NCBI GenBank assembly: GCA_025266875.1
Contig: JALLLT010000008.1
Coordinates: 310,001 to 374,000, forward strand
Source: Fennellomyces sp. T-0311
Taxonomy: Eukaryota; Mucoromycota; Mucoromycetes; Mucorales; Lichtheimiaceae
Direction: 5' to 3'
Length of the DNA: 64,000 bases
Position numbers and translations under genes: made by a program
Part shown: positions 1 to 8,714 of the stretch, piece after piece
How positions within the stretch are numbered: position 1 is the stretch's first letter
Layout: every line of letters starts with the position of its first letter
Notes under the pieces: generated by a model
The model's input: the letters and a program-made list of their open reading frames with translations, nothing else
The model's database searches: none
Told to the model about the DNA's origin: nothing

Positions 1-3000
1 TGGGACAAGAGTTACGAAAGCGTGGATACTCTAAGCCATTGGTGATACAGCTTTCCGGGTTGGATAATCAGACGTTCGAGAATCGTTTTGCTGGGTTACG
101 CGACGCGATCGATGGTGAACCTGCTCTTTTACCTTTACACGACTATAATAACACGGCGCAACCGCTTGTTAAAGTACGAGACACGTTTCTATCGAATGGG
201 ACATTTGATTCTGTTGTATCGCTAGGGGGTTCGGTACGTACGCAAAAATAAATAAACAGCAAGGAGTAAATGACCTGACGTCTACAAATATTACAGATCG
301 GTGCAGACATCGTATCGGGCGCCGTATTAGACATGCTAGAACACGATCATCCACGTGTGGCAGCAGCTTTTTTTGATATTGGAGGACCAAACATGACCAC
401 ATTATTTGCTCGCCATAAAGATACGATCGCTATCTCACAGTTACCGTACTATCAGACTGCATTACCAGTGTTTTACATGTACCTCCGAGTAAGTCTTGTC
501 CTAATACGTAGCATTTTATTAACACTTGAAGCTAAAAAGATATCCCATAGTTACTGACAGGACATGATGTTTTCCACAACGAAACTATCAAAACGGGGCC
601 TAACCTTGTCACAAACAAAACATTGGCTGCTGCAATGGAAAATGAACAAACTACTCTGCTACCTTTAAATGACAGGACAGCTTTTGTAGGTGCAGTGGTC
701 CCAAATACTCGGGGCGATACTTACAATGCGGCACTTATGGCTGGAGCGCAAGATTTGGCACGGAAGCTGAATTGGACTATTTTCAACGAAATTGAGGTAT
801 CATCACCTTAAAATAGCTTTAACTTATTTTCGGTTTTCTTACTACAATCGCTCTATATACATGTAGCAAGGGCCGCTAGGTAAATTTTTTGATTTAGCAC
901 GAGCTTATGAACACTAAAATAACAACAACAACGATATCAGGGTTTCCGCATCAATTGAGACACGAGGTAGCAACTTACGCAAAGCAAGGAGTCAATGGGG
1001 TGCTGTTGCAATCGAGTGACTCGTCTGTCATGGATTATGGGGCATCAGTTACAAACGCAAGTGAGGTACCTTTGGCACATATCGGTACCTTTCTTGAGCC
1101 CTTGAAATTATCCTTACCGTAGCTATTATATACTATGTACAAGCATGCAGGTTACTTATACTAAGTATTTAGGTTTGAAACTAATGTTGCCCTTGCTCGT
1201 GAAAAGCTTGCAATGGCTGTGGCGAAGCAGGTGTTGCAAGATAATGTACAAGCACCCGTGTGTCTATCGGAGCGTACACCTTTCGGGGTCAACGACTTCT
1301 GCCATACATTTTACTCTGCATACAAAAAGGATAAATCAAATAGTACAAGCATCCATAATGTTGTTCACACAGTCAACTTGTCAACTGCAGACGCAATGGA
1401 CACAGAATTTGAAGAAGTTCTGACGACTTTGAGAGCTCAAAGGTACGAACCAGACGCATACATTACATTCTCGGAACACGTTTTTGATACGATCAATACC
1501 GTAAGTATTATATTACTTCCTTAGCTCTGTCCACTAACGAAGCACTGAACTAGCGTATGCTGAAGGGTTATATGAGCAACGACACTTCACTGTATACTTC
1601 AGCTGACCTATATGACCAAGTACAAGCATTTATACAAGGGAGAATTAGGGCAATGTGGTAGGTGAAGTAGAAGCATGTTTCACATCTATCAGGATTATGA
1701 AATCCAAGATTCATGTAGGTCTATAAACATGTTTGCCATAGGCTTTCTATCATCACTTGACATTCTCTTGACCAAAACGATATCCAATCAACCATGGATG
1801 CAAACAAGTATTGGCACTCCAAAGGTTAACGTTGTATGCCCGCCTGGGAGATATTACAGCATCCTTGCAAGTAACACCTACTTTTGTCTTGACAACAGCC
1901 ATACACGGCTATCTGTTCAATGCCACACTTGCCCAGCCAACACTTACACTGATAAGCCAGACCAATCTAGTTGCATCACATGTCCATACGGAATGTATTC
2001 TCCGTCTGGCTCATCAACGTGTTTACGCTGTAGCAGTAACGAACCCATGAGCAAAAAGAATTCCCGTTGTATACAGTATACGGCAGATAAGAATGCTGCA
2101 AGGAAGCGACTCTATATGGGAATATTTATACCAGTCGGCGTTGTCATATCCTCACTGGTTGCCTCACTTCTGATTTGGCGGTGCCGAAAGCGCGATAGAA
2201 GCCATGGACGATTAGGTGACCAGGATTGGTTACTCACTTATCAAAGTCTAGTTCGACCATCAATGAAGTACCTCACTTCGTCTATATCGACTCGCCGTAG
2301 CAACTCGGCCGATGATATCGTTTCCAATAGTCCAATGATGGACTTTGCTGGATTTCGGCGAAACACAATATGCCGCTCCAATGTAGATTCCATGGTTGAA
2401 GTACCGAATACGCGCATGTCCTCTGTGACTGAGATCCCACGGAGTAGTCTATCCGATCCGGACCTGATAATGAATCGTGAAATCAAAACTATCGCAACAA
2501 GGTAAAAAAAAAGTAGGGGTTTCCAATACTTGAGATCATACTTATTAGGGTATAGCAACTCCAAAACAACCGAGGATTTTTCATCTGTATCCAAGAAGCA
2601 TGAGCTTATCCAAGCGGTTGGATCGCAGTAAGTAATACAATACAGGAAACGTGATTACTAACGTGACAAAGTCGTAATCTACCGGTTTTTATAAAGCAAA
2701 TTGGCTTTCGACGCATTCGTGTCAATGATGAAGTCAGAAAGGAAGTCGCGTTGATGAAGGATGCGCGCCATGCCAAACTTGTTGAACTCGTTGGTATGTG
2801 CATTGAGCCACAACGAACCTTTATTGTTGAAGGTAATATTTGAAATGTCTCATTTACTTGCGCAAGTTTTAAAGTAGAATGATTAGAATACTGCACGAAG
2901 GGCTCTTTGGCGGACGTACTGGCCGATAGAGATATTAATCTTTCATGGATATTTCGTTTCTCACTTATTCATGATTTGATTCAAGGTAGCTATGGCGACG

Positions 3001-5951
3001 GTGATATTTTGCAAGGCTAACCTTTCGTTATCTAGCTATGGAATTTTTACAACGATCGAAGTTCCTATACCATGGCCGACTTACATCACGCTCTTGCATG
3101 ATTTCGGGAAAATGGGAACTCAAAATTACAGATTATGGACTAAGTAAAGTGCGTCTTATGCAAGTCGATACACCTACTCTTGGACATATCCGCAAGTTTT
3201 ATCCACATGTCGATAACCGAAAAAACAAAAGCGAACCACTAATTCATTCGTGCCGTGAGTTGCTATGGTTGGCTCCAGAAACAGTAACTATCTTACCTAC
3301 CGGCACAATTATTTCTGTCCCCTCCAAACGCTCTGATCCATACAGGTTAGATAGATTGACATTTGATGAATGCTACAAGGACTTATATATCTACTTTATA
3401 GTGTTGGTGTCATAATCAACGAAATTTTAACGCGTGAAAAGCCATACAAGGACCTACTAGATGAAGGCCATTCTTATCATGATGTTTTCAAAATGGTGTG
3501 CGACCAAGGAAAGAAGCTTAGACCTCGTTTTGTGAAAACGATAGATGCCGATGGTCATGCTGAAAAAATGAATCAAATCATCGAAGAGTGTCTAAGCGAA
3601 GATCCAAATGTACGACCTACATTTTCAGCAATGGATAGTCGAATTCGAGCGTTTGATCCATATACGGGGTCAGATAACGTGGTTGACAATATGGCAGTGT
3701 TGGTAAAGTATATTGCTACTTCTAAGAACGTTTGATGTATCTAAAAAAGGATATTTCTAGCTGGAAAAATACGCAAATGACATGGAGGATCTAGTACGTA
3801 AGAGGACAGCAAATTTACAGCAACGAACCTTGGAATTGGAAGAAGAAAGGGCTCGGACACAAACTTTACTCCGAGGTGGAAAACTTTATCGAGTTGCAGA
3901 GCCAAACTTTATTGCTAATAACGTCATTGTACAGATTTGAAGATCGCAAAAGAAGTGGCAGAAACAGCAGCAACTTCAAAGCAAGAGTTTCTTGCCAATA
4001 TGTCACATGGTAACAGCATCACTCAAACCTTTACTGCAAGTTAATTGATCCACTCCTTCCAATAGAAATACGAACGCCTATGAATGCAGTGATCGGCATG
4101 TCACGAATGCTTATGGAGAGTGATTTGCCTCCTGATCTGTATGATTGTGCAGAAACAATCGAATCTTCGGGTAATACTGTGGGAAAGATGACACTGGATT
4201 GAGATTAATGTCAAAACAGGGAACCACTTGATGGCGTTGATCGATGATATTCTTGACTATTCTAAAATAGAATCAGGGCACTTAACCCTGGAAAGAGGAC
4301 TACTTGATCTGGTAATAGGAAGGAGAGAAAGGAAACTGGTCTACGCAATACTGATCAGCAGCATCAAAAAGACCTATGTAGTTGAAAGCGCAATGAAATT
4401 AATTGCTCCCAATTTTCTTGGAAAAGGGGTTGTCCTATGGTACGATGTGGATAGGAATCTTCCTACCCAAGTCTATGGAGATCTAGTGCGCTTGCGTCAA
4501 ATCTTACTCAATCTGTAAGCTCTTAGAATGGCATGTGAGCTTAAGCTAATATTTTTTTATTAGACTCTCGAATGCATTCAAGTTCACTGCTGCAGGCTAT
4601 GTGTATGTTCACATTGGACTTGACCCTGAAGAAGACTTGACCGAAGACTGGGTTTCGTACCTGTTTTCTGTCAAGGATACTGGGATTGGTATCCCTCACG
4701 ACAAATTAGAGAAACTTTTCAAGTCGTTTTCCCAAGTGGATGCTTCGACAACAAGGAATTACGGTGGCACGGGTTTGGGTCTCGCTATCAGTCGTCGACT
4801 GTGCAGTCTCATGAGTGGAGACATGGTATTTACTTCATTGCATCAAAGTAATTTTGGGTTTATACAGCGGTATCTATCTACTTTTTTAGTGGGTTAAATC
4901 TGTTGCCGGCGAAGGTTCGACCTTTTATTTCCGAATAGTGCTGCAAAAGCAGGCTGAATCAACCACATACGGAGAGCAATTCCAACTTTCTGATCTCGCC
5001 AAATCATGCCACCACCCCATGGTTATTGCCGAGCAACCATTATTGCGGACCGCTTGGCGTGCTCTTTTGACCAGCATGGGCATCACCGACGTATCGACTG
5101 TGTCCTTTAAAGAAGCCATTGACCATTTCCGACAATCGAAGCCACAACCTGTCATCTTGATCGCCGATGTTGATCTCCAAATGATCGAGCAACTTGGACC
5201 ACAAACAGCTTCAAGTGAAGTTGCTGTAGACGCGTTACAACGTTGGTTCCCGAATGTGGCAAGAATTCCGACGCTGTGTATAAAAGACGTACGTATTCGA
5301 CGATCCAAAACAAAGCAAGAGCCTCCTCGACAGCAGTGGCTGTTTAGGTGGAACCAGCAACCTGAAGCAACTCCCCTTGAAGAAGCCCCTAATCCATTGG
5401 AGGCACGTCGATCGCTATCCAAGCCATTTAAAAATTCTACATTGATAGAGATGCTTCGGAGCATTGGGCTGAATGAAAAGCAAGCAGAGCCAACTGTCCA
5501 GGAAAACACAATAGCAGAACCAGAACGCCGGTCTGATTTGTCCAGCATTTCTACACTGTTGGTTGATGACAATCCCATCAATCGCAAAGTAGTTGCACGT
5601 ATGTTGGCCAAAATGAATATTCATCCACAAATGGCTGTGAACGGACGTGAAGCGTATGAAGCAATCGAAGCAGCTCAGTCTTCCAATGCCCCAATTCAGC
5701 TTGTTTTTATGGATGTTTGGATGCCTGAAATGAATGGACTGGAGGCCACTGCAAAGATACGCAAAGAATTGATGAATGTGACCCTGCTGCAGCCATATAT
5801 CATTGCCATGACAGCATGTGTGATGCCCGGCGACCGCGAAAAATGTCTAGAAGCAGGTATGAATGGCTATGTTAGTAAGCCGATCCGCAAGGAAGAACTT
5901 GAAGCCGCTGTGTATACGTTTACACAGCTCATCACTGAAGGCTCGTCTTAA
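1..5951 (+). CDS. Receptor-type hybrid histidine kinase with guanylyl-cyclase-receptor-like ectodomain and pseudokinase (5' truncated)
   Basis: Open at the window edge, this gene reads through about 20 exons to a stop at 5949-5951. Introns inferred by phase include 234-296, 489-550, 1501-1553, 1658-1718, 3346-3401 and 4826-4889. Domains in order: two tandem sugar-type periplasmic-binding (RbsB/LacI-like) modules (about 3-640 and 660-1800); a Cys-rich GCC2/GCC3-like stalk (1836-2060); one transmembrane helix (about 2116-2178); a protein-kinase-like domain (2556-3690) with the VFIK lysine, HGRLTSRSC in place of HRDxxxxN, and ITDYGL; a coiled coil with [15 protein letters not shown] (3690-3875); HisKA with [10 protein letters not shown] (phosphoacceptor His 4006-4008); HATPase with N box [16 protein letters not shown] and GGTGLGLA; a degenerate receiver (5000-5300); and a true receiver with [11 protein letters not shown] (Asp 5712-5714). 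Kinase-homology region and coiled coil match membrane guanylyl cyclases, but no cyclase follows. Ligand and downstream targets are unknown. Exons at 867-879 and 1173 are least certain. Confidence 0.85.
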
Positions 5952-6225: not shown

Positions 6226-8714
6226 TCATGCCTGACTGTACGTACCACGATAAAAGCCTGGCCGAGTCGATGTAAGATACAAAGAGTATGCACGTGTCTG
6301 ACCATCATCCATCTGCACCTTTCGTAGTTTTCGGAATGCATCGCCTGGATTAGCAATGGCATAGTTGAGATAAAGAACACCTGCCCAAGAGCTCTGCACT
6401 GTAGGTGCAGTCGTTGCCAACTTTTGCTGCCATTCTTGCAATACAAACTCGCGCGTTCGGATATCGTCTGCAAGTGCTGGTGTCATTGGCAATTGTTGGA
6501 TACCGTGAATAAACTCCAGATAGCGTCCAAAATACGTTGTCTAAGATTTGTGTTCATCAATGCATTTGGTCTCCTGAAAGTGCTGACAAGGCTTACATAA
6601 TCCGACTTTTGTTCAAAGTAGATGCCCATAACCTTATTCTTGATCATGCTTTGCGGTCGGTTCTTGTTATCATCAAGCAACCAGAAGTATTCATACGTTG
6701 TTCGCTTGGTAATGGCCAACTGAAGTGCGGCAAGGTTCGACATGGCCTGGTTTCCGGTAGCAAGACCCCATAATTTGACACCCCAATAAAAGTTGATCGC
6801 CTAGAAAGTGTGTGTGACTACTAAATTTTAGGAGTATGCTTCAGCTTTTTACCTCTGGTACAGATTCTTGATCACGGCCATCAAGAGCACCATTAATCTT
6901 AATACCACCGGCCCAGCTATGGCCTGCAAACCAATCCCAGTTTCTAAACGGTGCGTAGTATGGATCATCATCCACTGGGGTATTTACGTCTCTGATCAGC
7001 GCTTGAGTCCATTTGGTAAGTTCATCTGACTTCCATGTAGGGTCCAAATAATGAACAATAGCAGCTATTGCTCTTGTGTAAGTAAAGGAACTTACAACTT
7101 GTTCATATCCTTTACCTGTGACGATCAAATAACCATGGTGATAATGGTGATCATTATAATACGAGTGGCCAAATGCTGCTTCAACATTATCCGTTCCTCC
7201 CATAGACTTTGGTAAACCTTCGCGGGCAACAACGCCTCGATACACGCTGTCGTAACGCAACGGGTCAGGCTGTCGGTTTTCGATAAAAGGTAGGAGCGAT
7301 GACTTTAGTTTGTCGAGGGATTGTGCTGCCATTTCGGGGTTACGCAAATGAGTTTCGTCCGGTTTGTTTAAAATCAGGGCCAGCAATGCAAACTTTTGGA
7401 GACCCTTTCCAGAAAAGTAATTGTCATGCATAAAGGTTTGAACTCGGTAATCGGTGTTCAGATCTTCTTCCATAGATTCCATTATTTCGTGTACAGCGGA
7501 TGGGGCAGCTTCTGGTCGTGATGGCAGCCAGGTTACATTACTCAGCTCTGGTTCATGAAGTACCCAGCGGTCACCCGATACGGCTTCCATATTGCCTTTC
7601 ATAGCTGATGGAAGAACTAGACCAGTGCGATTGGCGTCTTGAAGTGTTGCAAGATGATGGGGGTACGCATACATAAGCAGTTCACCCTCTCCTTCGCCTT
7701 GCCATTCAATTGTATAGGTACCTCGGGTTCTGTAAAGGTCATGTGTTAGCATCCCTTATTTCAATAAAAATATCAAAGGTATCTTGCCCATCCGCTTCAG
7801 CTTGTATGTTGGCACTCACTGGCCATCGGCGATGGTATTGATCGAGCACTTTCTCATCTTCACGAGATGGCAGTTTGGCCACCCGGATCGGTCCATTGTA
7901 AACCCCTGTACTAATCAAATTTGTATTGTTCACCTTGCGAAGTGATAAAGGTTGATCGCCCAATGCGTAAATCAAAAACGTCGATGTCGGCATATCATTC
8001 ATGGAAACTTTGAATTTGTGGCCGGTATAAACGTTGTCCTTGAAGCTATCTGCTTCGATTTGGGTGTATGCATGTTGGGTATAAAACTGTGGCGTCAAGT
8101 TGTGATAGATGCCGGTGATATAGGCCATGCCACGTACAAGAGGAAAGTCAATACGGTTATCGAGAGAACTGGATAGTTCCACATTCGCACTAAAGTGATC
8201 CCACGAAGTAATCGCTACTTTTGGTTTTTGAGTGCTCCATTCACTGGATGTAAATCGTATATCAACTGCGACGCTGTTGATCATGTATCCAGCCTCGGTG
8301 GGAGGGACATTGTTCATTTGGGGATACGATCCATATTTCTACATATATACTATTGGTTAATCCAACAAAATAAAATAGTTACTTATTCAGAACCTTTGTA
8401 GATGCTTGTCGTATCGTGAGACCAGGATTTCCGTTGTAGTCGTCGAATATTCGAAAGGTATAAGGATCGAGGGTCGTGGGTGCAATGTTATCTGTACTCG
8501 GATAGAATAAATTACTGCTCCAAGAATTGGTCGGCACGCTGCTGTTGACTTTCGAATCGGCGTATTGTGGTGGAAATGGATGCACTATCTTTGGGAAGAG
8601 CGAATATGGTGGATCGTTGGATATCGGGACAAGTACATTCATCATTTCAGACTGTCCTACGACTGCTGTTGCTATGGACAGGATGTATCCTGCTAATACC
8701 GCTGTTTTCATCAT
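6226..8714 (-). CDS. Secreted endo-1,3-beta-glucanase, glycoside hydrolase family 81
   Basis: Hydrolyses internal beta-1,3-glucan bonds; fungal GH81 enzymes act in cell separation or wall turnover. Five exons give about 755 aa, normal for the family: 8714-8394, 8338-7788, 7729-6853, 6800-6597, 6540-6226. The N terminus is a signal peptide ([20 protein letters not shown]). GH81 landmarks are [42 protein letters not shown] (catalytic Asp region), [11 protein letters not shown], and [17 protein letters not shown], which keeps both glutamates of the usual ESxSE motif. The first intron begins GTTCTG and the second is a GC-AG intron (7730-7787). A donor at about 6238 could splice to an extra Ser-rich terminal exon ending near 6069; I kept the simpler stop at 6226. 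The gene converges on the receptor kinase, 274 bp apart. Confidence 0.93.
7730..7787 (-). other. Probable GC-AG intron in the GH81 gene
   Basis: No GT donor joins the two flanking reading frames. A GCAAGA donor with acceptor TTTACAG and branch-like GCTAACAC joins them in phase (2+1) and gives a continuous family-like sequence [16 protein letters not shown]. The 58 nt length matches neighbouring introns. Confidence 0.75.

Follow-up and report, generated by a model that had tools for sequence, protein, structure and literature searches.

Animal receptor guanylyl cyclases such as NPR1 (GC-A) combine a binding-protein-like ectodomain, one membrane helix, a pseudokinase kinase-homology domain (KHD) of the receptor-guanylyl-cyclase (RGC) kinase group and, directly after it, a signalling helix (S-helix), and the core made of the KHD and the S-helix regulates the cyclase dimer. 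The RGC kinase group has been called metazoan-specific (extracts of PMC1420674 and PMC3019232). Fungal hybrid histidine kinases, for which 19 groups are given in extracts of PMC8510515, have HisKA, HATPase_c and a C-terminal receiver, while in the Sln1-type fungal receptor kinases, which have HAMP, an S-helix leads into the histidine kinase (extracts of PMC1592074). Here we describe a receptor gene of Fennellomyces sp. T-0311 that brings the two plans together, with an RGC-type KHD and S-helix joined to a predicted hybrid histidine kinase. The gene lies at the start of the window, the whole 64,000-nucleotide stretch that was analysed (C161 310001–374000 in a genome of 45.6 Mb and 182 contigs).

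The receptor gene is located on the plus strand, as are all its features mentioned below, at window positions 1–5951 and in 612 bases upstream of the window (L002 4389–5000). The manual splice model, with sites picked by hand from the sequence alone, comprises 21 exons and 20 introns (44–70 nt, all GT-AG) and gives a single open frame of 1,810 residues. Its ATG is at position −611 (zero counted), 612 bases ahead of the first base of the window (genome C161:309389), and the gene ends at 5951. A Phascolomyces protein, P0001, gave collinear matches to all eight segments of the model that were tried. The encoded protein consists of a signal-like N-terminus, tandem type-I binding-protein domains, a Cys-rich stalk, one membrane helix, the KHD, the S-helix, HisKA, HATPase and a receiver. 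A preliminary description of the window had proposed receptor-cyclase-like modules in this order, with HisKA, HATPase and receiver following the coiled coil; the order is confirmed by the complete splice model together with Pfam, and prediction with the upstream sequence yielded the complete gene, with its start outside the window.

In comparison with NPR1/GC-A, the fungal receptor has a hybrid histidine kinase where the cyclase sits, its ectodomain comes from another family (tandem, CUT2-like) and is accompanied by a Cys-rich stalk, and its S-helix is longer by one heptad. Of the features that define receptor guanylyl cyclases as enzymes, it has the single membrane helix (by hydropathy only), but neither the C-terminal class III cyclase nor the ANF_receptor ectodomain. 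As against the 19 groups of fungal hybrid histidine kinases, it adds an RGC-type pseudokinase ahead of the kinase, preceded by a single membrane helix and by binding-protein domains outside the cell, and it differs from the Sln1 type in having no Pfam HAMP and an RGC-type KHD before the helix. The earlier suggestion of a transmembrane sensor unlike standard fungal histidine kinases agrees with the binding-protein ectodomain and the RGC-type pseudokinase found ahead of the kinase.

The KHD occupies positions 2596–3678 (residues 893–1185; exons 2556–2627, 2672–2832, 2887–2985, 3036–3345, and 3402–3702), and Pfam assigns residues 900–1172 to a kinase domain (PK_Tyr_Ser-Thr, 4e-29). The motifs HGRLTSRSC and KITDYGL, in which HRD has become HGR and DFG has become DYG, are encoded in the same exon, 3036–3345. 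Searched against the Protein Data Bank (PDB), the KHD with the helix matched atrial natriuretic peptide receptor 1 (NPR1) at 6.6e-42, in one alignment continuing into the coiled coil; this match, together with the recurrence of the order KHD, helix, and HisKA in 113 of 115 fungal relatives (see below), places the order beyond chance. With the helix removed, NPR1 was again the top match of the KHD (6.9e-33, 118 bits), well ahead of guanylyl cyclase C at 66 bits and ABL1 at 65 bits (6e-17). Beyond the catalytic motifs, the residues in common with the NPR1 KHD include EYCxxGSLxDxL and LxWxFRxSLxxD.

Two maximum-likelihood trees were built. The first, of 46 sequences, comprised 16 fungal KHDs, nine receptor cyclases (six named animal proteins, the metagenome protein P0071, and two solved chains), four tyrosine kinases (TK), four tyrosine-kinase-like (TKL) kinases, among them roco4 of Dictyostelium, and 13 other kinase frames of the same genome, chosen from 25 frames in 30 loci (L055 and L078 are identical in the tree). 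For the second, of 49 sequences, seven long or odd rows were dropped and ten fungal rows added. For breadth, 16 and then 26 fungal rows were selected from 116, and choanoflagellate and group X kinases were outside the sampling. In both trees the fungal KHDs and the receptor cyclases form one clade with 100/100 support, apart from the 13 own-genome frames and from the TK and TKL rows, as the preliminary description had anticipated. The branch of the RGC clade measures 1.41 changes per column in the first tree and, in the second, 1.06 and 0.35 on either side of the drawn root. A topology joining the fungal KHDs to the TKL kinases, away from the cyclases, was rejected by the approximately unbiased (AU) test (p 0.0005).

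To compare the residues, 116 fungal KHDs were aligned with nine receptor cyclases and 21 ordinary kinases. The HRD arginine is replaced by glycine in 112/116 fungal KHDs and 9/9 receptor cyclases, vs. 0/21 ordinary kinases, and the DFG phenylalanine by tyrosine in 110/116, 7/9, and 2/21, respectively. The KHD of the window gene has the beta-3 lysine and the DYG aspartate, while its HRD aspartate is lost. None of the 116 fungal KHDs retains both the HRD and the DFG aspartate, and on this ground they are pseudokinases by sequence. Given the clade formed with the animal RGC KHDs, the HG-x-L and DYG motifs, and the S-helix immediately after the KHD, we assign the domain to the RGC kinase group, with an ancestry common with the animal RGCs.

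The database searches required five-letter words in common and a length of 0.55–1.75 of that of the query, so that distant relatives can be missed. A search with the KHD and helix of the window gene returned 77 matches, i.e., 69 fungal, seven receptor cyclases (six named animal and one metagenome protein), and one plant, whereas that with P0035 of Mortierella returned 93 (89 fungal, two plant, one from a protist collection, and one insect). Pooled, they gave 115 distinct fungal entries from 28 genera, which presumably divide into 17 of Mucorales and 11 of Mortierellales; only Fennellomyces (Mucorales, Lichtheimiaceae) and Podila were placed through the NCBI taxonomy, where they belong to separate phyla. 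HisKA is present in 113 of the 115 entries (the exceptions being P0067 and P0075), so that the order of KHD and histidine kinase, for which the preliminary description had suggested a survey of other Mucoromycota, recurs in nearly all of them; a Pfam cyclase domain was found in none of the 115, vs. 7/7 receptor cyclases. Rhizopus, Glomeromycotina, Dikarya, and chytrids were not in the match lists, but their lack of such receptors is not established because of the word and length limits. Some entries bear names given by their source, ‘RGC/RGC protein kinase’ (P0009 and P0079), ‘Receptor-type guanylate cyclase gcy-13’ (P0102), and ‘Guanylate cyclase’ (P0010), and so the KHD likeness had already been picked up by software. 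By Pfam, no cyclase domain occurs in any of P0010, P0009, P0067, P0079, and P0102, all named guanylate cyclase or RGC kinase.

The S-helix (3761–3875, residues 1194–1231) has an exon of its own in the window gene, flanked by introns on both sides and opening with [16 protein letters not shown]. In most members the helix starts with LEKY(A/G)N and it ends with an EEERxRTxxLL-like sequence in fungi and with EEKxKTxxLL in cyclases, whereupon the fungal proteins pass into the HisKA lead-in and the cyclases into the catalytic domain. With members found by profile and lengths counted by position, the RT-to-LL distance is 23 residues in 113/114 fungal proteins and 16 in 7/7 receptor cyclases, i.e., the two are one heptad apart. 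The length from the helix start to the phospho-accepting histidine is identical in 112/114 fungal proteins, and in one of the two exceptions, P0065, it is greater by 14 residues, which equals two tandem heptads. Proline is absent from the helix stretch in 113/114 fungal proteins; this and the heptad-sized gap to the cyclases would suit a continuous coil. Searched alone against the PDB, the S-helix ranked NPR1 first, weakly (0.018). An intron (3876–3934), absent from a paralogue on C125, separates the S-helix from the histidine-kinase module, which comprises HisKA (3976–4278, residues 1246–1311; Pfam 8.8e-21) with the H-box MSHEIRTP and the predicted phospho-acceptor His1256 (4006–4008), HATPase_c (4477–4943, residues 1358–1475; Pfam 3e-27), and a C-terminal receiver domain (5556–5912, residues 1680–1798; Pfam 3.3e-26) with the predicted phospho-acceptor Asp1732 (5712–5714) in the motif FMDVWMP. 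The module is accordingly composed as in hybrid histidine kinases, and the Pfam scan of the receptor protein matched neither Guanylate_cyc nor HAMP, CHASE, GAF, or AAA. Receiver_CRE1, the first receiver domain of the AHK4/CRE1 cytokinin receptors, was matched by 10/15 relatives (alignment A1) at E 0.01, and not by the window protein at 0.001; these matches may hint at a double-receiver kinase module.

The first PBP (periplasmic-binding-protein) domain of type I covers window positions 1–631, starting ca. 390 bp upstream of the window (residues ca. 74–355; exons −611 to −222, −168 to 233, 297–488, and 551–796). Pfam finds in it Peripla_BP_4 (residues 76–273, 5e-14), with Peripla_BP_1 overlapping part of that stretch, and its sole PDB match at E 0.01 or better is the CUT2 monosaccharide-binding protein 4ru1 (1.1e-15). 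The module thus belongs to the same sequence family as the bacterial CUT2 sugar-binding proteins, although here it is tethered to a eukaryotic membrane receptor. The second, degenerate PBP-like domain (659–1815, residues ca. 365–650; exons 551–796, 867–879, 941–1118, 1173–1500, 1554–1657, and 1719–2501) matched the first in a profile–profile comparison with a 14-sequence alignment per half (E 7.6e-7, probability 91.7, 182 columns, 11% identity). It is followed by the Cys-rich stalk (1834–2100, residues 657–745), which resembles Ephrin_rec_like under its Pfam cut-off; among the relatives, at E 0.01, Ephrin_rec_like was found in 4/15 and NCD3G in 3/15. The single transmembrane helix (2116–2172, residues 751–769, within a hydrophobic stretch at 748–773) was located by 19-residue hydropathy, which exceeds 1.6 only there and in the signal-like N-terminal stretch. 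An ectodomain search with P0001, in which proteins shorter than 0.55 of the query length were excluded, returned 12 proteins including the query, and all 12 have the KHD. An animal ANF-type ectodomain was considered and dropped, as profiles of six animal ectodomains failed to match (E 0.19 and 0.46) and Peripla_BP_4 was found instead. The exact order of animal cyclases claimed earlier therefore holds for the membrane helix, KHD, and coiled coil, but not for the ectodomain, which is of another PBP-I family, nor for the stalk, which is extra. To our knowledge, a Cys-rich stalk has no place in the natriuretic-receptor plan.

ANF_receptor itself has five matches elsewhere in the genome (L033–L037; C128, C13, C35, and C120), of which three were inspected by eye. 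L033 runs on into what by eye is a seven-helix part, and the ANF_receptor loci are probably class C G-protein-coupled receptors.

The domain order, the ancestry of the KHD, the loss of a catalytic aspartate, the near-fixed spacing from the S-helix to the histidine, and the HisKA, HATPase, and receiver motifs are read from the sequence, and on them a signalling route can be proposed. We infer that the receptor is dimeric and ligand-gated. The ligand would be a solute of small size, with sugars and polyols as the likeliest candidates in view of the 4ru1 match and of the Pfam families Peripla_BP_4 and Peripla_BP_1; this is the weakest step. Its binding would close the binding domains of the dimer, the closure movement would pass through the stalk and the membrane helix to the pseudokinase pair, and the pair would twist or slide the S-helix coiled coil. 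Since the coil can run proline-free into the HisKA helix bundle, its state would set autophosphorylation of His1256, from which the phosphoryl group could be passed to Asp1732, then to a Ypd1-type histidine-phosphotransfer (HPt) protein, and on to Ssk1- or Skn7-type regulators; matches to Hpt and to further receivers are present in the genome. That Mucorales and Mortierellales possess a single-pass receptor in which a sugar-binding-protein-like ectodomain, the RGC allosteric core of pseudokinase KHD and S-helix, and a hybrid histidine kinase are joined and signal in this manner has, in our estimate, a probability of about 75%. The interpretation given in the preliminary description is supported.

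Several observations weigh against this interpretation. The second binding domain is visible by profile comparison only, with no Pfam match of its own. Single catalytic aspartates persist in many fungal KHDs, that of HRD in 46/116 and that of DFG in 24/116. One to three glycines occur in the helix stretch of 41/114 fungal proteins, and P0010, in which the distance from the helix to the histidine is 17 residues longer, breaks the heptad rule, although its insert resembles an intron left unspliced, in the position held by intron 3876–3934 of the window gene. The helix together with the kinase core has as its best PDB match the histidine kinase 7z8n, beginning within the helix (query residue 9), and S-helices are known ahead of other histidine kinases too (extracts of PMC1592074). 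The S-helix by itself being weak evidence, it is the KHD that carries the argument.

As to the origin of the core, both trees place P0071 next to the fungal KHDs, though with modest support only (87/82 and 85/78). This receptor cyclase from a metagenome combines ANF_receptor, EGF-like, KHD, and cyclase domains, and the organism it comes from could bear on how the group arose. That the fungal KHD core was acquired horizontally, with an animal or another holozoan as donor, and not inherited from a common opisthokont ancestor, is a realistic if minority prospect: among the high-scoring matches the group occurs only in receptor cyclases (six animal proteins and P0071) and two fungal lineages, with neither Dikarya nor chytrids in the match lists, but the limits of the searches would hide distant relatives, and the fungal KHDs are not nested deep within the sampled animal RGCs, a topology with the nine receptor cyclases as a single clade not being rejected despite the position of P0071 (AU test, p 0.435). 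We tentatively propose, at somewhat less than even odds, that the KHD with the S-helix is a pre-animal receptor chassis with an exchangeable output, the exchange having occurred at the end of the S-helix with the coil register kept, so that the core would serve a phosphorelay in Mucorales and Mortierellales and cyclic GMP production in animals. The preliminary description had the cyclase replaced by the kinase; the direction of the swap may fit shared ancestry, transfer, or a reverse swap.

A role of the KHD and S-helix confined to that of a rigid spacer or scaffold is unlikely; the histidine kinase would then be regulated otherwise, e.g., by turnover or localisation, and not gated by a ligand through them. 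The variation of nucleotide-binding residues, such as the replacement of the beta-3 lysine by arginine in 56/116 fungal KHDs, speaks for a scaffold, but a near-constant helix spacing, a gap to the cyclases of one heptad, and a KHD conserved in two phyla argue for a core that transmits a signal.

An artefact of the gene model, by which an adjacent receptor/kinase gene and a histidine-kinase gene were joined by eye, is highly improbable. The splice sites were indeed chosen by hand, and P0067 and P0075 end before HisKA, but the remaining 113 relatives are fused across many genome annotations, the helix-to-histidine spacing is constant, and the C125 paralogue retains the intron ahead of the S-helix but lacks the one behind it, so that its S-helix and the start of HisKA lie in one uninterrupted exon; with the continuous splice model, this answers in favour of one gene the earlier concern that there might be two. 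In group X (Chk1-type) hybrid histidine kinases, a Ser/Thr kinase domain is combined with AAA and GAF. Derivation of the KHD from such a kinase, or from an ordinary fungal or TKL kinase, with the likeness to cyclase receptors due to convergence in a decayed kinase, is scarcely credible, since, although both kinds are decayed kinases, the Pfam label is merely PK_Tyr_Ser-Thr, and the trees contain no group X domain, it is contradicted by the trees and the AU test, by the NPR1-like residues outside the catalytic motifs, by the absence of GAF and AAA, and by the own-genome search with the KHD and helix, in which the window gene and the C125 paralogue scored high and only four further matches appeared, none above 24.7 bits, the C103 kinase, with a GAF-like stretch seen by eye, not being matched.

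The receptor on the RGC core with its histidine kinase output appears in none of the full-text literature matches listed, a scope of open-access main text, and on this basis we regard it as a hybrid histidine kinase of a new class. Figure 2 of PMC5285503 is devoted to histidine kinases from early diverging fungi that are termed ‘unprecedented’, among which such a receptor may already be drawn without a label. Words beginning with ‘guanyl’ are absent from the main text of PMC5285503, PMC8510515, and PMC6944256, and those beginning with ‘periplasmic’ from the main text of the first two. According to extracts of PMC1592074, an S-helix following a Ser/Thr kinase domain was reported solely in animal receptor cyclases, and the fungal S-helices were solely of the Sln1 type. 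The presence of the RGC group in 28 fungal genera, ahead of a histidine kinase in nearly all entries, differs from the metazoan-specific view expressed in extracts of PMC1420674 and PMC3019232, and it suggests that the RGC core, far from being an invention of animals alone, is a receptor chassis that can be moved between systems. The fusion is a natural domain-swap experiment on how a pseudokinase and a coiled coil relay a ligand signal to an output; yeast offers an assay for a histidine kinase output, and rotation, sliding, or unwinding of the S-helix is therefore testable there. A class of fungal sensors, probably for small solutes, is defined at the same time, and the guanylate cyclase names in databases are corrected.

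The diverged paralogue of the receptor (L080) lies at C125:177186–180474 and is annotated as P0011, with an ectodomain fragment only; P0011 aligns to this contig in ten pieces at 89–100% identity. Upstream of it, at C125:174056–174634, there is PBP-like sequence, under the cut-off and with three in-frame stops that may be introns. The own-genome search for Peripla_BP_4 pointed to one place, near this paralogue and under the cut-off, and missed the domain of the window gene, which is interrupted by introns. Guanylate_cyc has one match in the genome, in a frame joining, by eye, leucine-rich, PP2C-like, and cyclase parts; such a combination is the plan of fungal adenylyl cyclases, and the sole cyclase match looks like one of these. 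Profile matches in the genome number two for Hpt, 21 for the receiver, and 38 for HATPase. The longest matches of the kinase core in its own genome, the paralogue aside, are 43–47% identical (C103, C106, C128, and C57). The region C35:614059–614265 encodes a 69-residue histidine-kinase stretch with 61% identity to the receptor kinase core, more than any other non-paralogue kinase of the genome, and no KHD was matched there in the own-genome search with the KHD and helix. The upstream neighbour of the receptor gene is an open frame, Myb-like by eye, ending ca. 300 bp before the receptor start codon, and on the other side the receptor gene is adjoined by its downstream neighbour, a GH81 glucanase gene on the minus strand (window 6844–7755).

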